Below, in pieces: positions 6,253-34,594 of a DNA stretch of 40,806 nt (position 1 is the stretch's first letter; each line of letters opens with the position of its first letter). The position numbers and the translations under genes are program-made. The notes beneath the pieces were generated by a model, which worked only from the letters and a program-made list of their open reading frames with translations, was not told the DNA's origin and made no database searches. Source of the stretch: Bacteroidia bacterium. GTDB taxonomy: Bacteria > Bacteroidota > Bacteroidia > B-17B0 > Aurantibacillaceae. The DNA lies in the NCBI GenBank assembly GCA_025451115.1, contig JANWKZ010000132.1:1-40806 (forward strand). Reading direction: 5' to 3'.

Positions 6253-8112
6253 TTAAAGGCGGATCCCTATAACAAGAACATCATCAACCTGCTCAAGCTC
6301 GCCCCTCCATTCTAAGATAATCCTTTCGAGTTCCGTCCTTTGCTTCTCCATAGGAAGACTTGAGTTCCTGAGCAAAAGCTCCTGGAAAGGTCTGTACTTG
6401 AATTTCTTTCCTTTGGGGCCCCCAAACTGATCGGCGTAGCCATCTGTGAACATGTAAATGATGTCGCCTTTTTTCAGTTTAAGTACATGATTCGTGAAAG
6501 GCTTCTTCTCTTCATCAGTCGATCCGCTCACAGGCTGTTTGTCAGCTTTCAGTTCGCTCATCACCCCGTCGCGTAATAAAAAGATGGGATTGTTGGCTCC
6601 GGAAAAATGAACGGTTCTTGTTTTGAAATCAATGGCGCACATGGTCATGTCCATACCATCGCGTATCACCTCGCCTTTATTGGCTTTTAGATTTTTGGGC
6701 AGCTCCTGGTTCAGAAAATCCAAAGCTTCGGCCGGAGAATTGATGTTCGGGTTCTTGATGGTTTGGTTCAGCAGGGTATTCCCGATAATGCTCATCAGCG
6801 CGCCGGGAACGCCATGGCCGGTGCAATCTACGGCCGCAACAATCGCCAAACGCTCATCTTTTACAATTTCTTTTCCCTGTGGGGTAAGTTGTACGGAGGT
6901 TACCCAATAAAAATCACCACTTACAATATCCTTGGGCATGTAGAGCACAAAATGGTCCCTGAGTATTTCGCTGATCTCTTCTTCACGAGGCAGCATACTG
7001 CGTTGTATGCGTTTGGCGTAATTGATGCTATCGGTAATATCCTCGTTCTTCTGGCGGATTATTTTTTCTGTGCGTTTTCTTTCGGTAATATCAGAAGAAT
7101 AAACGCGCAGGATCTTGCTTTCGGGAATGGCGTACACTTTTTGCTCGTACACTTCCTCTCCAATGGTGATCTCGCAGAGATAAGAACTCAGCTCGCCTTT
7201 TTGAAAAGATTCGAATTGCGGACGGATAATATCGAAGAGGCCATGCGAACTTCCTTTTTCCTGCATATCCGGAAAGCGTTTCCTGGCTGCGGGATTCAGA
7301 TAGCTCACGGTTCCGTTTAATCGTAATTCAATTACCGGGTTTGGATTTTGCTCGGGGAAAAGGGCCAGGTTAGCCAATCTTTTTTCGATCTCTTTTTGAT
7401 TGGTGATATCGGAGGAATACACGCGCAGCAAATTACTTTCAGCCAACGCGAATACTTTTTGTTCATAGATGGCTTCGTTCACCGTTATCTCGCAATTGAA
7501 ATTCTGTAACTCCTTTTTTCTAAAGGAATCTATCTTAGTAAAAATATTGGCAAAGAGGGGATGCGAAATTCCTTTTTGCTGCATATCCGGGAACCGGTTC
7601 TTTGCCGCAGGGTTTAGATAGCTCACAGTCCCATCAAGCTTCAATTCAATTACAGGATTGGGATTCTGCTCCGGAAATAGCGCCAAATTGCCCAGGCGTG
7701 CCTCGGTCTCTTTTTGTTTAGTGATATCGGAAGAATAAACACGCAGGATATTACTCTCAGGAATGGCGTATACCTTTTGCTCGTAAATGTGTTCATCCAC
7801 CACCAACTCGCACGCATACATTTTCAGGGAGCCATTTCTAAACTCATCGAGTCGCGTCGAGATCTCGGCCAGCAAATGGTGTTCGAAACCGCTTACCTGC
7901 AGTTCCGGAAAAAGTCTTTTAGCTGCGGGATTCATATAGCTTACTTCTCCTGTCAGCCTAACCTCTATCACTGGGTTGGGGTTTTGTTCGGGGAAAAGAG
8001 CCAGATTGGCGAATTCTTTTTTGTCTTTCACCACTTTGCGGAAGGCAAAAATGAGCGTGAGCACAGAGCCTATGCCTAAAAATATACTGATCCATAAAAC
8101 AGCGTTGTTCAT
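6253..8112 (-). CDS. PP2C-type SpoIIE phosphatase with N-terminal TM and three tandem PAS-like sensor repeats
   Basis: Three ~106-aa repeats (NLALFPEQNPNPVIEL.L.GTVSYLNPAAK..FPDMQ), linker DSINYAKRIQRSMLP, then SGDFYWV...DCTGHGVPGALMSIIG...FTDGYADQFGG. Confidence 0.93.
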   Translation of the reverse strand: MNNAVLWISIFLGIGSVLTLIFAFRKVVKDKKEFANLALFPEQNPNPVIEVRLTGEVSYMNPAAKRLFPELQVSGFEHHLLAEISTRLDEFRNGSLKMYACELVVDEHIYEQKVYAIPESNILRVYSSDITKQKETEARLGNLALFPEQNPNPVIELKLDGTVSYLNPAAKNRFPDMQQKGISHPLFANIFTKIDSFRKKELQNFNCEITVNEAIYEQKVFALAESNLLRVYSSDITNQKEIEKRLANLALFPEQNPNPVIELRLNGTVSYLNPAARKRFPDMQEKGSSHGLFDIIRPQFESFQKGELSSYLCEITIGEEVYEQKVYAIPESKILRVYSSDITERKRTEKIIRQKNEDITDSINYAKRIQRSMLPREEEISEILRDHFVLYMPKDIVSGDFYWVTSVQLTPQGKEIVKDERLAIVAAVDCTGHGVPGALMSIIGNTLLNQTIKNPNINSPAEALDFLNQELPKNLKANKGEVIRDGMDMTMCAIDFKTRTVHFSGANNPIFLLRDGVMSELKADKQPVSGSTDEEKKPFTNHVLKLKKGDIIYMFTDGYADQFGGPKGKKFKYRPFQELLLRNSSLPMEKQRTELERIILEWRGELEQVDDVLVIGIRL

Positions 8113-24872: not shown

Positions 24873-25466
24873 TTATTTAGAATGCCTTTTTTCAAGCACT
24901 TCAAGCACATCTTTCAATTCAAAGTTCTTTGCGCGCAACAGGATCAGGTAGTGAAACAGCAGGTCGGCCGCCTCACCTAAAAAAAGATCCTTGTTGTCGT
25001 CCTTAGCTTCAATAACAAGCTCGGTAGCCTCTTCCCCAACTTTCTGCGCGATCTTATTCATTCCCTTCGCGAAAAGAGAGGAGGTATATGATTTTTCGGA
25101 GGGATTATTCTTCCTCTCCAAAATGATCTGCTCGAGCTTAGCTAAAAAATCTCCTGTGTTCTTTTCATTGAAACAGGTATCTGCACCGGTATGACAAACG
25201 GGGCCAACCGGATCTGCTTTTATAAGAAGCGTATCTGTATCGCAATCGATCAACACTTCTTTTACGCTCAGAAAATTTCCACTTTCCTCACCCTTGGTCC
25301 ATAAACGGTTCTTTGTGCGACTAAAAAAGGTCACGCGCTTTTCTTTGTTGGTCTTTTCAAGCGCTTCCGCGTTCATAAAGCCAAGCATCAGCACTTTTTG
25401 CGTGGAAACATCCTGGATGATGGCGGGCGCAAGGCCGTCTTTGTATTTCGAAAAATCGATCTTCAT
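24873..25466 (-). CDS. hisIE: Bifunctional phosphoribosyl-AMP cyclohydrolase / phosphoribosyl-ATP pyrophosphatase
   Basis: LMLGFMNAEALEKT, GEESGNFL, DPVGPVCHTGADTCF, and the HisE part KIAQKVGEEATELVIEAKD. Confidence 0.96.
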   Translation of the reverse strand: MKIDFSKYKDGLAPAIIQDVSTQKVLMLGFMNAEALEKTNKEKRVTFFSRTKNRLWTKGEESGNFLSVKEVLIDCDTDTLLIKADPVGPVCHTGADTCFNEKNTGDFLAKLEQIILERKNNPSEKSYTSSLFAKGMNKIAQKVGEEATELVIEAKDDNKDLFLGEAADLLFHYLILLRAKNFELKDVLEVLEKRHSK

Positions 25467-25469
25467 TTT

Positions 25470-27434
25470 TTATATTCTTACACCGATAACAAGCACGTCG
25501 TCAACCTGGTCGAGTTTGCCACGCCAATTCTCAAAAGCGGTGTTCAGTTTCTCTTTTTGTTCGGTTAAAGGCAAGTGGGCTATCTGCAGCATGAGCTCGG
25601 CCATTTGCTTGTATTTGAATTTTTTTCCTTTTGGTCCGCCGAACTGATCGGCATATCCGTCGCTGAACAGGTAAAGCACTTCACCTTTGTTCAAAGCAAT
25701 GGTCTTTTCTTCAAAGGGCATGATCTCTTCCCCAAATTTCCCTACGGGTTGTTTATCGGGCATCACCTGGCTTAATTCCATCTGAGTGTTCTCTTCCATA
25801 CCTGAAAGAGAGGGACCAATGATCCAAAGTGGGTTATTAGCGGCCGCCACGCGCAATTCAGAATTATTTTTATCAAACATACAGAGAACGCCATCCATCC
25901 CATCTTTTATTTCATAATCATTCTTGGAAAAGGCTTCCTGCAGTAATTCGTTCACTTTATCAAGGATAACACCCGGACTTGTAAGCTTGAATTCTTTTAC
26001 CGCACGCGTTAAGGCGTTGCAGGCAACAATGCTCACCATGGCCCCGGGCACTCCGTGTCCTGTGCAATCGCAAGCGGCTAACAAGGGTTTCCCTTCAGCG
26101 GTTCTTTCTACCCAATAGAAATCACCGGCAACGATGTCTTTGGGTTTGTATAAAATAAAATACTCCGGGAAGATCGTGTTGATGGTCTTGTCAGAAGGCA
26201 ACATTCCGTCCTGGATGTATCTTGCATAACTGATCGAATCCATTACTTCTTTATTCTTGGTTTCTACAAGTTCCTTTTGAAACTCAACCTCTTTTTTCTG
26301 AAATTGAATAAGAGAGTATAGGTTACGGGTTCTTTTCAGGTAAAGAAAAAGAAAGACCACGGCGGCTATCAGAACGATCACTCCACCGGTTAAAATGATC
26401 CCCCTGAATTTACTGCTGGCCAGTTCGGCATTTTCTTTCTCAAGCGCCAGGCCCTGCTCGGCAATGATCTTCTCTTTTTCGGTGAGTTTTAATTTGTTCT
26501 CTATTTCATTAAGGCTTTTTATTTTCTCGATATTCAGCAAAGAATCTTTAAGCAGCCGGAAACGCTTCAGCGCGTTAAAAGCTTCCGGGTAATTTTTATT
26601 CTCTTCCAATACCGAGATCAAACCTTCAAGCGCGTCTGCTTCTTCAACCATTAATTTGTTTTTCCGCGCAAGTAAAAGCGCTTCGTTAAAATACTTGATG
26701 GCTTCGGTAGAGTTCTTTAATCTAAAAAAAGTTTCTCCTAAATGAGTCAGGCCGGTGATCTCACTATCTACCATTTTGTATTTGCGGGCCTCTTCCACAC
26801 TTTTTTGGTAATGAAGTGCGGCTTTCGAAAAATCTTTTTTTCCAAAATAGGCCATGCCAAAATTCACCTGGATAAAAAAATCATTTTTCCCGTTTGGGAG
26901 TTGCATTGCGATCAATTCATTCAATGTGCTCAGCGCTTTTTCATAATTACCTGCTTCGCAATAATCCAGGGCAAGATTCACAGAGGAAGCGGCAAGTCCC
27001 AGGGTGTCCTTCGCGAGTATGTACAGCTCCCTGGCTTTAAGTAGGTATTCCAACTCTTCCTTATCATTAAGGAGCCGACCCATTAGAATGGATTTAAGCG
27101 CGTAACATTTGGCCAGGCCTTTGTTGTGTTTTAACTTTTCGAAAATGCCGGCAGCTTCATTTAATTTTTCCAGCGCAGGTTTTAGATCGCCCTTTAAAAG
27201 CAGGTATCTCGATTCGCAAACCAATGAATAAGCATACTGTTCTTCCAGGTTCTCTTTTTTACTCAGAGACTTTGCTTCCAGGCAATAGGTCATAGAGGAA
27301 TCGGGTGCAGCATTATAGATCTCGGTAGCTATCTTTAACAGACCATCAGCCCGCTCGGCGGGCGACTGCGCACTGAGCGAAAACGCAAGAATTGCGGATA
27401 ACAGGAATAGGCAGTAGGACTTCATGGAATGCAT
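25470..27434 (-). CDS. TPR - TM - SpoIIE/PP2C-type phosphatase, embedded in the his operon
   Basis: Signal peptide, TPRs, TM GIILTGGVIVLIAAVVFLFLYL, linker DSISYARYIQDGMLPSD, then AGDFYWVER...DCTGHGVPGAMVSIVACN...FSDGYADQFGGPKGKKFKY. Confidence 0.94.
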   Translation of the reverse strand: MHSMKSYCLFLLSAILAFSLSAQSPAERADGLLKIATEIYNAAPDSSMTYCLEAKSLSKKENLEEQYAYSLVCESRYLLLKGDLKPALEKLNEAAGIFEKLKHNKGLAKCYALKSILMGRLLNDKEELEYLLKARELYILAKDTLGLAASSVNLALDYCEAGNYEKALSTLNELIAMQLPNGKNDFFIQVNFGMAYFGKKDFSKAALHYQKSVEEARKYKMVDSEITGLTHLGETFFRLKNSTEAIKYFNEALLLARKNKLMVEEADALEGLISVLEENKNYPEAFNALKRFRLLKDSLLNIEKIKSLNEIENKLKLTEKEKIIAEQGLALEKENAELASSKFRGIILTGGVIVLIAAVVFLFLYLKRTRNLYSLIQFQKKEVEFQKELVETKNKEVMDSISYARYIQDGMLPSDKTINTIFPEYFILYKPKDIVAGDFYWVERTAEGKPLLAACDCTGHGVPGAMVSIVACNALTRAVKEFKLTSPGVILDKVNELLQEAFSKNDYEIKDGMDGVLCMFDKNNSELRVAAANNPLWIIGPSLSGMEENTQMELSQVMPDKQPVGKFGEEIMPFEEKTIALNKGEVLYLFSDGYADQFGGPKGKKFKYKQMAELMLQIAHLPLTEQKEKLNTAFENWRGKLDQVDDVLVIGVRI

Positions 27435-27447
27435 AAAAATAAGGCTT

Positions 27448-28224
27448 TTATATCCTTACGCAAATATTGTTTTTATCGAGATAGGTTTTAAGGTCGGGGA
27501 TCTCAATTTCTTTGAAGTGAAAGACGCTGGCCGCAAGCGCTGCATCGGCCTTTCCCTTGGTAAACACATCCTTAAAATCCTGCATTTTTCCCGCACCCCC
27601 ACTGGCGATAACGGGTATATTGACAGCTTCTGATATTTGTTTTGTGATCTCGAGTGCGAAGCCATTTTTGGCCCCGTCGTTATCCATAGAAGTAAGAAGG
27701 ATCTCACCAGCGCCCAGTTTTTCTCCTTCTATGGCCCAGTCTAACGCGCGCTTGGTGGTTCGCATCCTTCCTCCGTTCAAATGAACGAGCCAATCGCTTC
27801 CTTTCTCAAAATTCCCCTTGATATCGAATTGCGTATCAATGGCAAGCACTACGCACTGACTCCCAAAACGGCCCGCCAGTTTGCTGATCAGCTCCGGGTG
27901 TTTGAAAGCGGCAGTATTAACGGATATTTTGTCGGCACCTGAATCTAAAAGAAGTTCTACGTCTTCTACGGAGCGGATGCCACCACCTACGGTGAAGGGA
28001 ATATTTATTTTCGAGGCGATCTTGTTCACTAATTGCGAAAGCGTTTTTCTTTTTTCTTCAGTAGCGCTGATATCAAGAAATACAAGTTCATCGGCTCCGG
28101 CTTCGCTGTAATGAATGGCAAGCTCAACGGGATCGCCGGCGTCACGAAGATGTTCAAAGTGAACGCCCTTCACGGTTCGTCCGTCTTTGATATCGAGGCA
28201 GGGGATGATTCTTTTACTTAGCAT
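27448..28224 (-). CDS. hisF: Imidazole glycerol phosphate synthase cyclase subunit
   Basis: [71 protein letters not shown]. Confidence 0.97.
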
Positions 28225-28940
28225 CAGACGTATTTTTTTAGTTCGGCCAGGCTGATCTTTCCTTCGTAGATGGCTTTTCCTATGATCACGCCAGTACAGC
28301 TATTGTTTTTTAAGAGCTCTACATCTTTGATAGACGAAACACCTCCGCTGGCAATTAAATTTGTTTCCGGAAATTTTTCTATGATCCTTTTATAGAGATC
28401 AATTGCCGGACCTTTCAGCATTCCGTCCTTGGAAATGTCGGTACAAAAGATATTCTTTATTCCTTCCTGTAGATTCTGATCGATAAAATCAAAAACAGAC
28501 ACGTTTGTTTCCTCGGCCCAGCCGTGAATAGCCAATTTTTCATTTTTTACGTCTGCCCCAAGTAAGAATTTCCCCGCGCCATACTTTCTTACCAATGAAT
28601 AAAAAACTTCCGGCTCTTTCACGGATAAACTGCCAATAGTAGCTAGTTGGGCACCCGCGTTGAAAACAGATTCCAGGTCTTTCTCTTGTTTGATCCCGCC
28701 CCCGAAATCGATCTCCAGGTTTGTATTTTCCGCGATGCGTTCCAACACCTTCAGGTTTGTGATCATGCCGCTTTTTGCACCATCCAGATCTACAAGGTGT
28801 AACCTTCGTATGCCCGCATCTTCAAATTGCTTCGCAACTTCGAGCGGATCTTCGTTATAGATCGTTTTTTTAGAATAATCTCCCTGAGTAAGTCGCACGC
28901 ACTTACCTTCAATGATATCTATGGCCGGAATGATCTGCAT
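28224..28940 (-). CDS. hisA: ProFAR isomerase
   Basis: [63 protein letters not shown]. Confidence 0.97.
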
Positions 28941-29551
28941 TATAGTTCAAAAAAGTTCTTTAATAGTTTCTCGCCTGCGGTTGCCGATTTTTCAGGATGG
29001 AACTGGGCCGCATAAAAATTGTCTTTGTGCAAAGCGCAGCTATATTCTAAAATGTAATTGGCCGTTGCAATACTGTGTTCGTTTTTCTCTGCGTAGTACC
29101 CATGCACAAAATACATGTATTCATTCTCTTTAATCCCGTTAAACAGGGGCGACTTGAGATCATAGATCTTGTTCCAACCGATCTGCGGAACTTTAATATC
29201 GCCGCTTTTACTCTTGCTTGGCTCATCGGGGGATATAAAGTGCCTTACCGGAACATCAAAAATACCGAGGCATTCCGTATTTCCTTCTTCAGAGCTTTTA
29301 CATAATAATTGCATGCCCAGACAAATGCCGAATAAAGGTTGTTTTAATTCTTTTATAACTGTATCGAGTTTTTTGTCTTTCAAATACTTCATAGCGCTGC
29401 TGGCCTCACCCACACCCGGAAAGATAACTTTGTCGGCTGAACGGATTTCCTCGGCATTATCACTCAGAATAGGAGTCACACCAATGCGTTCCAGCGCGAA
29501 GGTCACAGAACGGATATTGCCTGCATGGTAATTTATGATCACTGCCTTCAT
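28940..29551 (-). CDS. hisH: Imidazole glycerol phosphate synthase glutaminase subunit
   Basis: [46 protein letters not shown]. Confidence 0.97.
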
Positions 29552-30651
29552 AGAATTCCCTTTGTACTTGGTAACGACATATTATTTGCATCCCGTTTCA
29601 CGGCCATCTTCACGCATTTTGCAAATGCTTTGAAAATGGATTCGATCTTATGGTGTTCGTTCTCGCCTTCAGCTTTTATATTCAGATTGCATTTAGCGGC
29701 ATCACTGAATGATTTGAAGAAGTGAAAGAACATTTCAGTAGGCATTTCACCTATTTTCTCTCTTTTAAAATCGGCTTTCCATTCGATCCAGTTCCTCCCA
29801 CCAAAGTCAAGGGCGACCTGGGCCAGGCAGTCGTCCATGGGAAGACAAAAGCCGTAACGCTCAATTCCTCGTTTGTTGCCCAAAGCTTTCGAGAAGGCTT
29901 CTCCGAGAGCAATTCCAACATCTTCTATTGTGTGGTGCTCATCAATGTGTAAGTCGCCTTCGCAACTAAGAATAAGATCCAGCGCGCCGTGCTTTGCCAG
30001 CTGATCAAGCATGTGATCGAAAAAACCAAGGCCTGTAGAAATTTTTGCTCGACCACTTCCATCAAGATTCAAGTTCACTTGTATTTTGGTCTCATTCGTG
30101 CTCCTAGTGTGAGAAACGAAACGAAACGATTTAGATAAAAAAGAATAAATATCCTTCCAGTTGTCTGTACAAAACGTGACATCGCTTTCCTTTATCTTGT
30201 CGTAATTTTTTATGAAGATACTACCGCAACCAAGGTTTTGTGCCAATTTTACGTCGGTAATTCTATCGCCAATGGTAAAAGAGTTCTTCAGGTCGTAGGA
30301 ACCATCCATATATTTAGTCAGCATGCCCGTGCCGGGTTTACGGGTAGGTTTGTTTTCTTCCGCAAAGGACTTGTCAATACAGATCTCTTCAAATTTGATA
30401 CCTTCTCCTTCCAGCGTTTCAATGACCAGGCGCTGGATCTTATCGAAGATCTCCTGCGGATATTTTGCCGAACCCAGGCCATCCTGGTTTGTTACCATCA
30501 CTAGCTCATAATCAAATTCACGCGCAATTTTACCTAACCAAGTGAATACGCCGGGAAGAAATTTCAATTTTTCAAAGCTGTCGATCTGGAAAGTATCGGG
30601 TGGTTCCCAGATCAAGGTGCCGTCGCGGTCTATGAATAGAACTTTTTTCAT
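29548..30651 (-). CDS. hisB: Bifunctional histidinol-phosphatase / imidazoleglycerol-phosphate dehydratase
   Basis: [20 protein letters not shown] (HAD half) and [37 protein letters not shown]. Start at 30651 gives a 4-bp overlap with hisC. Confidence 0.96.
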
Positions 30652-31733
30652 TTGTATGAACTTAAAACATCCAGTAATCTTTGATTCTCTTTCTCCGTAC
30701 CAATGGTCATGCGCAGGCAACCCTCGCAAAGCGCTACGGTTGATCGATTGCGCACTACAATTTGGGCGTCAACCAGGTAGTTATAGAGTTTGTTGGGATC
30801 TTCTGTTTTTACCAAAAGAAAATTTGCTTCGCTCGGATAGATTTTCTTTACGAAAGAAAATTTCTCAAGTGCCGCTGCCAGTTTTCCTCTTTCACTAACG
30901 ATAGTTTTGATCCAATCGTTCACTTGTGCAATGTTCTCCAGCGCTTCAAGGGCGATCTGCTGGGAGACAGAATTGATATTATAGGGGGGCTTTACTTTGT
31001 TGAACACATCAATGATCTGTTGCGAAGCGAAGGCCATTCCCACTCTAAGTCCGGCCATTCCCCAGGCTTTGGAAAGGGTTTGAAGAATGACAAGATTGGG
31101 ATAGTTCAATAGCTCCGGAATTAAACTCCTGTATCCTGCGAAATTAATATAGGCCTCATCAACAACAACGATCCCGTTGAAATTCTCAAGCACCGTTTTT
31201 ATGTCGGCCCACTTCACTCCGTTACCTGTGGGATTATTCGGACAGCAAACAAAGAAGAGTCTTGTATTTTGATTTATCGTTTTTAGAATTCCGGTTGTAT
31301 CTAATTGGAATGTTTCCGGAAGCAAATTCACTTTTCGCACTTCAACATCATTGATATTGGCAGAAACTTCGTACATGCCGTAGGTAGGCGGACAAATGAT
31401 CGCATTGTCAATAGCCGGCCTGCAGAAGGCACGGAAAAGTATATCAATAGCTTCATCACTACCATTTCCTAAAAAGATGTTTTCAATAGGCAACCCTTTT
31501 ATTTTGCTGATCTTTTCTTTCAGTTCTAATTGGAGAGGATCAGGGTAACGATTATAGGACCTCACCCCCGGCCCCTCTCCTGCAGGAGAGGGGAGAGGTG
31601 ATCCGTATGAATTTTCATTAGCGTCAAGGAAAATACCTTCTTTTCCCTTATACTCATCACGTGCCGAAGAGTAGGGCGTAAGGTTTTTTATATTGTGCCT
31701 TAAAATAGTATCTATGTCGAATTCCTTTTTCAT
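30648..31733 (-). CDS. hisC: Histidinol-phosphate aminotransferase
   Basis: [13 protein letters not shown]...[61 protein letters not shown]. Confidence 0.97.
31558..31604. repeat. Palindromic repeat element embedded in frame within hisC
   Basis: CCTCACCCCCGGCCCCTCTCCTGCAGGAGAGGGGAGAGGTGATCC contains a perfect 22-bp palindrome CCCCTCTCCTGCAGGAGAGGGG (31572-31593). Confidence 0.7.
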
Positions 31734-33004
31734 TTTATTCTTAAAGTAACCGCGTTCTTGTGTGCATCCAGGCCTTCGGCCTCTGCCATCAATTCAATTG
31801 TTTTTCCGATATTCTTTATTCCCTGTTTGCTTAATTTCTGAAAGGTAATTTTTTTCACAAAACTATCCAAAGAAACTCCGCTATAGGCTTTTGCAAAGCC
31901 ATTCGTAGGCAAGGTATGATTTGTGCCGCTGGCGTAGTCGCCGGCGCTTTCGGGAGAGTAATTTCCCAGGAAGATAGACCCCGCGTTCACGATCTTCGAG
32001 GCGAGTTTCTCATCACTCTTACAACTGATGATCAAGTGCTCAGGTGCGTACTCGTTGATCATTTCTGTGGCTTCCTTGTCATTTCTGACTAAAATAGCTT
32101 TACTGTTCTCAAGGGCTTTCAGGGCAATGTCTTTGCGCGGTAATTTTTCTACCTGCAGTTCTATCTCCGCCTGTACTTTTTCAATGACCTTCTCATCGGA
32201 CGAAATCAGTATAACCTGGGAATCGGCTCCGTGTTCGGCCTGCGACAAGAGGTCGGCGGCTACAAAAGAAGGCACACAGGTTTTATCGGACCATACGCAG
32301 ACTTCAGAAGGACCGGCGGGCATATCGATGGCAATTCCTTCTTTATTGATGAGTTGTTTGGCGCAGGTCACATATTGATTGCCGGGACCAAATATTTTGT
32401 AGACCTGCGGAATAGTTTCTGTTCCGTAAGCCATAGCTCCGATAGCCTGAACTCCGCCCACTTTAAATATTTTTTTTATTCCCACGAATTGCGCTGCAAA
32501 AAGGATGGCGGGGTTTACTGTTCCGTTAGCCGCGGGCGGCGTACACAAAATAATTTCCTTGCATCCCGCGATCTTTGCCGGGATACCCAACATAAGTATT
32601 GTAGAAAACAAAGGCGCACTTCCGCCGGGAATGTAAAGCCCCACTTTCTCGATAGCCACTGATCTTCTCCAGCATTTTACGCCTGGAGAGGTGATGATCG
32701 TTTTTACAGGTTGCTCTTGCGCCTTATGAAATTTTCGGATGTTCTCAGCCGCTTGTTTTATAGCTTTCTTTAATTCCTTACTTACCAAATTGGCAGCCGA
32801 GGCAGATTCTTCCTTGCTTACTTCAAATTGCGCTAAGGTTGCCTTGTCAAACTGCAGGGTGTATTTCTTTATGGCTGTATCGCCATTCTGTTTTACATCC
32901 TGCAGAACGTTTTGTACGGTAGTTTCCAAAGAAGAATTATCTAAGGCAGGACGCTTCAGAAGTTCTTTCCAGGCAGTTCTATCGGGATACTTAATTAGTC
33001 TCAT
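31730..33004 (-). CDS. hisD: Histidinol dehydrogenase
   Basis: GLYIPGGSAPLFSTILMLGIPAKIAGC, FKVGGVQAIGAMAYGTETIPQVYKIFGPGNQYVT, DMPAGPSEV, LLSQAEHGADSQ. Confidence 0.97.
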   Translation of the reverse strand: MRLIKYPDRTAWKELLKRPALDNSSLETTVQNVLQDVKQNGDTAIKKYTLQFDKATLAQFEVSKEESASAANLVSKELKKAIKQAAENIRKFHKAQEQPVKTIITSPGVKCWRRSVAIEKVGLYIPGGSAPLFSTILMLGIPAKIAGCKEIILCTPPAANGTVNPAILFAAQFVGIKKIFKVGGVQAIGAMAYGTETIPQVYKIFGPGNQYVTCAKQLINKEGIAIDMPAGPSEVCVWSDKTCVPSFVAADLLSQAEHGADSQVILISSDEKVIEKVQAEIELQVEKLPRKDIALKALENSKAILVRNDKEATEMINEYAPEHLIISCKSDEKLASKIVNAGSIFLGNYSPESAGDYASGTNHTLPTNGFAKAYSGVSLDSFVKKITFQKLSKQGIKNIGKTIELMAEAEGLDAHKNAVTLRIK

Positions 33005-33855
33005 AGGATCATTTTTTCGATGGGTACAACCAAAATTCCCTGGGCGCCGTTAGCTTTCAATTTCTCAATGATCTCCCAAAACTCGTCTTCCTGCACTACG
33101 CTGTGTACTGAGCTCCATCCTTTTTCGGCCAGCGGAAGAATGGTTGGGCTTTTCATGCCCGGAAGAATATCACAAATGGTCTTTAGTTTATTGTTAGGCG
33201 CATTCAGTAAAATGTACTTATTGCTTTTGGCCGAGCGTAGAGCGTTCATCCGGAATAATAATTTTTCCAGGAGGGCTTTCTTCTCTTTATCTAAATTCTT
33301 GTTCGAAACAAGCGCTGCCTGCGACTTAAGAATAACCTCTACTTCCTTTAAACCATTCGTAAAAAGTGTGCTGCCCGAACTTACCAGGTCGCAAATAGCA
33401 TCAGCTAAACCAATGCCCGGCGCAATTTCAACCGAGCCGCTTATCTCATGTATTTCTGCTTTGATCTTCTTCTTCTTTAAATAACCTGAAAGTATAGTTG
33501 CGTAGGAGGTAGCTATTCGGAGTCCCTTCAGATCCTTTGCACTCTTGTAGGTCTTATCCTTTGGAATGGCGATCGACAACCTGCATTTTCCAAAACCAAG
33601 TCGCTGCACGGTCTTTACATTCCTGTTCTTTTCCAGGAGAACATTTTCTCCTACAATTCCAATGTCGGCTACTCCATCTTCCACATATTGCGGAATATCA
33701 TCGTCGCGCAGGAAGAATACCTCCAGCGGAAAATTATAGGCTTCGGCTTTCAGCTTATTGAGCCCGTTATCGAACTCGATGCCGCATTCTTTGAGCAGTT
33801 TAAGCGAACTTTCGCTTAAGCGTCCTGATTTCTGTATTGCGATCTTTAACTTCAT
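33001..33855 (-). CDS. hisG: ATP phosphoribosyltransferase (long form)
   Basis: MKLKIAIQKSGRLSESSLKLLKECG, FLRDDDIPQYVEDGVADIGIVGENVL, ISGSVEIAPGIGLADAICDLVSSGSTL. Confidence 0.96.
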   Translation of the reverse strand: MKLKIAIQKSGRLSESSLKLLKECGIEFDNGLNKLKAEAYNFPLEVFFLRDDDIPQYVEDGVADIGIVGENVLLEKNRNVKTVQRLGFGKCRLSIAIPKDKTYKSAKDLKGLRIATSYATILSGYLKKKKIKAEIHEISGSVEIAPGIGLADAICDLVSSGSTLFTNGLKEVEVILKSQAALVSNKNLDKEKKALLEKLLFRMNALRSAKSNKYILLNAPNNKLKTICDILPGMKSPTILPLAEKGWSSVHSVVQEDEFWEIIEKLKANGAQGILVVPIEKMIL

Positions 33856-33883: not shown

Positions 33884-33970
33884 AAAAAAAGGCCTACCGT
33901 TTGGTAAGCCTTTTAATGTTTTATTGCTTATTGCATATACAAAATCATTACAGCCTACCTTGAGGGTAAG
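33884..33970 (-). promoter_or_regulatory. his operon attenuator (mutually exclusive hairpins with intrinsic terminator)
   Basis: Minus-strand RNA: segment 1 CUUACC (33970-33965), segment 2 GGUAGGC (33959-33953), segment 3 GGCUUACC (33910-33903), segment 4 GGUAGGCC (33898-33891), then U7 (33890-33884). 1:2, 2:3 and 3:4 can all pair. Confidence 0.88.
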
Positions 33971-34004
33971 AGTGATGATGAGTATGTGCAAATTGCTTTT
34001 TCAT
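33948..34004 (-). CDS. his operon leader peptide, MKKQFAHTHHHSYPQGRL
   Basis: 19-codon ORF (with stop) on the minus strand, with His codons CAT-ACT-CAT-CAT-CAC directly before the attenuator stems. Too short for the supplied ORF track. Confidence 0.88.
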   Translation of the reverse strand: MKKQFAHTHHHSYPQGRL

Positions 34005-34014
34005 TTCTGTGCAA

Positions 34015-34047
34015 CAAATGTATGGAAAAATCCGGATACCCGCCAAA
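34015..34047 (-). promoter_or_regulatory. Candidate his operon promoter TTTG-N21-TACATTTG
   Basis: Minus strand: TTTG (34047-34044), 21-bp spacer, TACATTTG (34022-34015, exact TAnnTTTG), 10 nt before the leader ATG. Confidence 0.65.
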
Positions 34048-34048
34048 T

Positions 34049-34594
34049 TTAATTTTTTTTGGCCTTTCCGATAGCGGATATTCCCAGGCTTTCGGAGTAA
34101 AGAATGAAGGTTTCCGGTTTTTCATCGAGATAGAGCACAGGAACCTGTTCCCCGGGCTTCAGATCTATCTCTTGTTTATTACCAATAAAGGGCACCATGC
34201 CGTCAAATCCCTGTCCAAGCCGGTCGTTATAGATCACATGGATGAAAATGTAGCCGGCTGATTGCGTGATGCTATGGGCACCTGTGTTTCCGTGGATCTC
34301 AGATTTCTCTACAATACCCATGGTCACATTTCCATTGCGACAAAGATTCACCGCTTTCATGCCATTCAACATCATGGCCACACCCATTAGTTCGAATAAA
34401 GCTGCAATGCCGGCTCCCCAAAGTATTCCTGAAACGAGGTCGTCCCATTTCCACCAGCTGATCATCCCAACAAGCGGGATGATCAGAAGTGAGCCAATAA
34501 GTATGCCTTTTACTTTTTTACGGTTCTTGCTGAACAGCGGATCGGAATAATTAATATCCCTGGGCGTGTTCTTTAATAATTCGGCTGGTATCAT
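34049..34594 (-). CDS. Hypothetical membrane protein (DUF3592-like)
   Basis: Two TM segments, then a soluble domain ending GEQVPVLYLDEKPETFILYS. Confidence 0.78.
   Translation of the reverse strand: MIPAELLKNTPRDINYSDPLFSKNRKKVKGILIGSLLIIPLVGMISWWKWDDLVSGILWGAGIAALFELMGVAMMLNGMKAVNLCRNGNVTMGIVEKSEIHGNTGAHSITQSAGYIFIHVIYNDRLGQGFDGMVPFIGNKQEIDLKPGEQVPVLYLDEKPETFILYSESLGISAIGKAKKN

Follow-up and report, generated by a model that had tools for sequence, protein, structure and literature searches.

In the enterobacterial his and trp leaders, RNA segments pair as the alternatives 1:2, 2:3 and 3:4, an intrinsic terminator precedes the first biosynthetic gene, and in the his leader the ribosome stalls at His codons. 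In enterobacteria, the his leader folds in a more complex way, from six segments; it carries seven His codons in a row, and its 5′ UTR is longer and includes a Shine-Dalgarno site. Sinorhizobium meliloti trpL, from another phylum and serving another amino acid, is a leaderless attenuator in which the leader start codon stands at the RNA 5′ end and attenuation proceeds via ribosome stalling, although both the leader RNA and the peptide have additional roles in trans (PMC7298713). Within the Bacteroidota, the Bacteroid-trp leader RNA has been described upstream of trp operons (Rfam RF01692; Weinberg et al. 2010, PMC2864571). The available part of a study of Flavobacterium psychrophilum reports clues of leader-peptide attenuation before amino-acid operons, as well as a structured 5′ element before hisG that has no Rfam hit and is conserved in other Flavobacteriaceae (PMC9723704). 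That element shares gene and phylum with the leader described here, and the two are likened by description rather than by anatomy or sequence comparison. Rfam holds no his-leader family for Bacteroidota, and the available part of a 2021 survey of his genes in the superphylum does not describe Bacteroidota his leaders. Our paper searches on these leaders returned no dedicated paper, and his attenuation was mentioned only in passing in the searchable literature.

The window analysed here is a 40,806-nt stretch of contig JANWKZ010000132.1 from a Bacteroidia bacterium. Upstream of its hisG we find the parts of what is very probably a classical, ribosome-mediated, translation-coupled transcription attenuator of the his operon.

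Anatomy of the leader and its operon

All features lie on the minus strand. Four of the 18 leader codons (7, 9, 10 and 11) encode His, the amino acid whose biosynthetic genes follow, beginning with hisG.

34044..34047, minus strand: −33 element TTTG of a predicted sigma-A promoter, 21 nt before the −7 box (from sequence)
34015..34022, minus strand: −7 element TACATTTG, 10 nt before the leader ATG; adjoins the leader ORF in relatives too
33948..34004, minus strand: his leader peptide ORF of 18 codons, MKKQFAHTHHHSYPQGRL + TAA (from sequence; His-rich short ORF conserved before hisG)
33972..33986, minus strand: control codons CAT ACT CAT CAT CAC (H T H H H) (from sequence; conserved His run)
33964..33971, minus strand: segment 1, UCUUACCC, pairs with segment 2 (duplex −6.9 kcal/mol)
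33951..33960, minus strand: segment 2, AGGUAGGCUG, with alternative partners 1 and 3; spans the last leader codons
33903..33914, minus strand: segment 3, AAAAGGCUUACC, forms the antiterminator with 2 or the terminator with 4 (from folding and covariation)
33887..33898, minus strand: segment 4, GGUAGGCCUUUU, terminator 3′ arm (from folding and terminator scan)
33884..33890, minus strand: U7 tract of the intrinsic terminator (from sequence and terminator scan)
33001..33855, minus strand: hisG, ATP phosphoribosyltransferase, long form, 284 aa (Pfam PF01634 and PF08029), first gene of the controlled operon
24873..33004, minus strand: rest of the his operon: hisD, hisC, hisB, hisH, hisA, hisF, a TPR-SpoIIE phosphatase gene and hisIE (ORFs)

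Segment 1 starts at the codon directly after the last His, and an intrinsic terminator, a 3:4 hairpin of 12 bp with a 4-nt loop followed by U7, stands between the leader ORF and the first gene. The initial annotation had placed the promoter, leader ORF, segments 1 to 4 and U7 tract before hisG; all are present and correct to the base, and the two Pfam domains confirm its naming of the downstream gene. In the remainder of the operon, hisIE and the SpoIIE gene were identified by Pfam, and hisD, hisC, hisB, hisH, hisA and hisF are genes that we take to be such from recognition of their sequences. The TPR and SpoIIE-type phosphatase gene (25470-27434, 654 aa) is inserted between hisF and hisIE, and by eye an ORF at 6253-8112 has a similar phosphatase domain.

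The leader stood out clearly against chance. Its RNA folded at −38.4 kcal/mol, whereas shuffles averaged −19.2 ± 3.3 (z −5.9). The isolated terminator reached −16.9 kcal/mol (z −5.3 against shuffles), and the 2:3 duplex, at −11.1 kcal/mol, beat all 100 shuffles. A terminator scan of 401 bases returned one site, namely the leader hairpin, with 0.3 expected. The terminator hairpin word occurs a single time in the 2.75-Mb genome assembly, at the leader, and is therefore not a repeated element.

At the gathering threshold, the window matched no Rfam family, the enterobacterial his leader family included, and in the leader region the latter had no match even when E values up to 1 were allowed. RF01692 aligned over its full length (1-131) with 29.9 bits and E 0.13 against a gathering threshold of 49, so that the leader is not a member of that family. 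Other sub-threshold matches involved enterobacterial sRNAs as well as Phe and Thr leaders; we discounted them as products of chance or of a common terminator shape, the layout being shared by Bacteroid-trp alone. Both leaders come from the same phylum and have the −7 box, a 10-nt gap, an ATG AAA AAA/G CAA start, a run of control codons, an ORF-end segment matching the terminator, and a terminator with a U tract; they differ in that Bacteroid-trp carries Trp codons before the trp operon, whereas His codons precede hisG here. The RF01692 match spans 34024-33903 and begins at the −7 box, which suggests that the Rfam model reaches into promoter DNA ahead of the transcription start. Two trp leaders from the same genus (L207 in genome G062 and L208 in G065) encode MKKQILNNSWWWFSTNVVNS, carry TACATTTG 10 nt before the ATG, share the MKKQ start of the his leader, and score about 45 bits, just below the RF01692 cut-off.

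According to the available part of PMC9413887, his genes in other bacteria are under the repressor HisR or T-boxes, and a protein repressor or a His-responsive riboswitch could in principle use these hairpins with translation uninvolved. We give this hardly any credence: the window contains no Rfam family at gathering score, and what is conserved is an in-frame His codon run behind a start codon.

Alternative folding and conservation of the switch

Conditional folding was performed on nascent RNA ending at segment 3, with ribosome-covered bases masked to 12 nt past the first base of the A-site codon. In the ribosome-free state, P(1:2) was 0.99 and P(2:3) 0.01. With a ribosome stalled at His codon 7, 9, 10 or 11, P(2:3) rose to 0.99-1.00. 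A ribosome placed at the stop codon prevented both 1:2 and 2:3 (P(2:3) = 0.00), which leaves 3:4 free to form. The predicted fold thus flips exactly as the initial annotation had proposed for masking of segment 1. In the fold, the 1:2 stem is moreover extended, with the His codons and sequence beyond the stop codon taken into it. The predicted hairpin energies are −16.4 kcal/mol for 3:4 and −17.5 kcal/mol for 2:3, and at equilibrium the full-length leader settles on 3:4 in every case, that of a stalled ribosome included; the antiterminator would therefore have to act kinetically, during transcription. As a thermodynamic prediction from folding, relatives and covariation, stalling at the control codons yields an antiterminator that is mutually exclusive with the terminator.

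Conservation was assessed on HisG relatives drawn from the same family, from named genomes and from an even sample of the class, which gave 187 distinct hisG upstream regions, mostly from class Bacteroidia. A short ORF with at least four His in eight codons was present in 153 of the 187 (opposite strand 0, shuffles 0.35), and one with at least three His in eight codons in 177 (opposite strand 11, shuffles 6.3); at this looser setting, 10 loci had no His-rich ORF. Examples of the leader peptides are MNITVHTHHHHHFLPSR in Chitinophaga ginsengisoli, MTQNLHLHWHHHTHPPGKQVLLCRF in Taibaiella chishuiensis and MQLYSATYNHHHHHHVNSASMHGRFML in Fulvivirga aurantia. Six more distant Bacteroidia (L155, L160, L164, L174, L178 and L186) have longer leader peptides with a conserved HHFHHSS-like tail, in which the His run lies directly before the stop codon. 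Among 20 hisG genes placed by the genome tool outside the class and inside the phylum, His-rich ORFs were evident in families f74, f81 and f82, were less distinct in f79 and f87, and were absent from the 11 others.

A hairpin with a U tract followed downstream in 164 of the 187 loci, and the scan gave none in the remainder. The loci lacking one could be taken to favour a leader ORF that acts via translational coupling or reinitiation at hisG, or via a Rho-dependent switch, instead of an intrinsic terminator, and leader ORFs near structural genes have indeed been proposed to raise translation by reinitiation (PMC4833913). In the window, however, the leader stop is separated from the hisG ATG (33855) by 92 nt, a distance well beyond the peak at 10-14 nt in that study, and the strong hairpin with U7 sits in this very gap; such a coupling mechanism is accordingly judged highly unlikely.

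The switch itself was followed in the 164 loci with a hairpin. The median probability that segment 3 pairs upstream was 0.30 in the absence of a ribosome; a stall at the last His codon raised it to 0.87, whereas a ribosome at the stop lowered it to 0.12. Under stall, the probability exceeded 0.7 in 130 loci, versus 17% after shuffling. Relative to the ribosome-free state, a switch was seen in only 82 of the 164; for part of the relatives, 1:2 is not predicted to exclude the alternative when the ribosome is lacking. Pairing of 2:3 reached a shuffle p ≤ 0.05 in 85 of 101 loci of the GGCUUAC type and in 32 of 63 of other types, and 50 of these 63 paired better with their own partner than the median of foreign pairings, figures in which the choice of segment 2 as the best-pairing stretch favours pairing, the shuffles correct for this only partly and the sequences are related.

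The core words GGCUUACC and GGUARGC are strikingly constant across loci, as is expected of bases that each take part in several alternative helices. Core position 6 nonetheless varies in concert across segments 2, 3 and 4: the triple is U/A/U in 102 loci, C/G/C in 6, and a G-U intermediate in 8. Other lineages use unrelated words and keep the pairing, for example CCCGUCUGA with UCAGGCGAGG and GAGCCCGG with UCCGGGCUC. The conservation check laid down in the initial annotation, which made loss of the His codons or of the 2:3 and 3:4 pairings in close relatives its refuting outcome, thus came out in its favour, with codons and pairings kept and the latter co-varying. Judged from these sequence comparisons, the predicted his attenuator is kept ahead of most of the hisG genes sampled from class Bacteroidia, and of some from elsewhere.

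This covariation also bears on a simpler origin for the hairpin. An upstream gene on the same strand (34594-34049) ends 135 nt before the hairpin, which makes a good intrinsic terminator, and the hairpin might merely terminate that gene, the His-rich ORF being accidental. We consider this most improbable: in most relatives a promoter box and a His-rich ORF intervene before the hairpin, and a plain terminator does not explain why segment 2, within the ORF, co-varies with it. The upstream ORF itself (34049-34594, 181 aa) had no Pfam match.

Comparison with relatives also touches on the history of the operon. The YifB-like protein of the window is closest to its own genus (79-83%). HisG resembles sequences from other genera in the family more closely (up to 86%, versus 65-68% for the same genus), and so does HisD (73% versus 58-62%). 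In the HisG tree, the same-genus sequences fall outside a well-supported branch containing the window's HisG, and three same-genus relatives have attenuators of the CCCGUCUGA or CCCGUUUGA type, that of the window being of the GGCUUACC type. The his operon (24873-33855) together with its attenuator seems to have been replaced by a related version, apparently horizontally. This signal may alternatively stem from a mis-joined contig in the draft assembly; replacement of the operon is the simplest reading.

Promoter position and the start of the leader mRNA

The −33/−7 promoter pattern alone was not above chance in the window (1 found versus 1.4 expected) and was rejected as independent evidence; it gains weight only because its position next to the leader ORF is kept in relatives. 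A sigma-70 type promoter for the leader was likewise rejected. In F. psychrophilum, TAnnTTTG occupies −12 to −5 relative to mapped transcription starts, according to the available part of PMC9723704. When this spacing rule is applied, the RNA of the window is therefore predicted to start at approximately 34010, with a predicted 5′ UTR of about 6 nt.

In relatives, the gap between the −7 box and the leader start codon is mostly 4 or 7-12 nt. It is exactly 4 nt in 14 leaders, which are predicted to be fully leaderless. A gap of at most 11 nt was found for 74 of 128 leaders versus 4 of 26 ORFs of at least 200 aa at the same loci (Fisher p 7e-5, a value that ignores relatedness); this comparison covers leaders and ORFs with a box within 60 nt, and its control set is small because most control ORFs sit inside operons. 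A further 49 leaders had no exact box within 60 nt. A start codon that usually lies 4-12 nt after the −7 box was not found described in our literature search, and from this placement the leader mRNA is therefore predicted to be leaderless or nearly so. For comparison, only 3.7% of 5′ UTRs in B. thetaiotaomicron are published as shorter than 10 nt, and 5.5% of F. psychrophilum mRNAs are given as leaderless in the available part of PMC9723704.

We lean slightly towards a general rule, by which the his attenuators of Bacteroidota, and the trp attenuators that were checked, would be systematically leaderless or near-leaderless, with predicted 5′ UTRs of 0-8 nt, ribosome loading tied to promoter escape, and initiation independent of Shine-Dalgarno pairing.

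Proposed mechanism and its significance

From the computed elements, their conservation and covariation, and conditional folding, we infer as follows where transcription starts, that the ORF is translated, that ribosomes stall on it, that termination occurs in the cell, and how the operon responds to histidine. RNA polymerase would begin some 6 nt ahead of the leader ATG, and ribosome loading would take place very close to the RNA 5′ end. When charged His-tRNA is ample, the ribosome would pass the four His codons to the stop codon and either cover segment 2 or leave so that 1:2 forms; segment 3 would then be free, 3:4 and U7 would form, and transcription would end ahead of hisG. Under a shortage of charged His-tRNA, the ribosome would stall on the His codons and cover segment 1, segment 2 would pair with segment 3 once the latter is made, and the terminator would come too late, allowing transcription of hisG and the downstream genes.

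The initial annotation had likened this to the logic of the enterobacterial his attenuator. Folding and covariation support that part of the comparison which concerns the switch, with its stall and its 1:2, 2:3 and 3:4 pairings; the likeness does not extend to the anatomy, which here has four segments, in contrast to the six of the enterobacterial his leader, and is nearest in Rfam to Bacteroid-trp.

The mechanism as such is classical, and Bacteroidota trp leaders in Rfam as well as a structured 5′ element of hisG in F. psychrophilum were already known. What is added here is that a predicted his attenuator is documented through most of the sampled Bacteroidia hisG genes; the near-leaderless start is possibly a new generality. 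Unannotated ORFs of 15-25 aa thereby gain a likely function, and the leaders could serve as the basis of an Rfam entry. If the 5′ UTR is nearly absent, as predicted, one may ask how a ribosome loads quickly enough for attenuation to work, given that this phylum relies little on Shine-Dalgarno pairing. If the near-leaderless arrangement holds true, it would represent a distinct, phylum-typical way of synchronising the ribosome with the polymerase.
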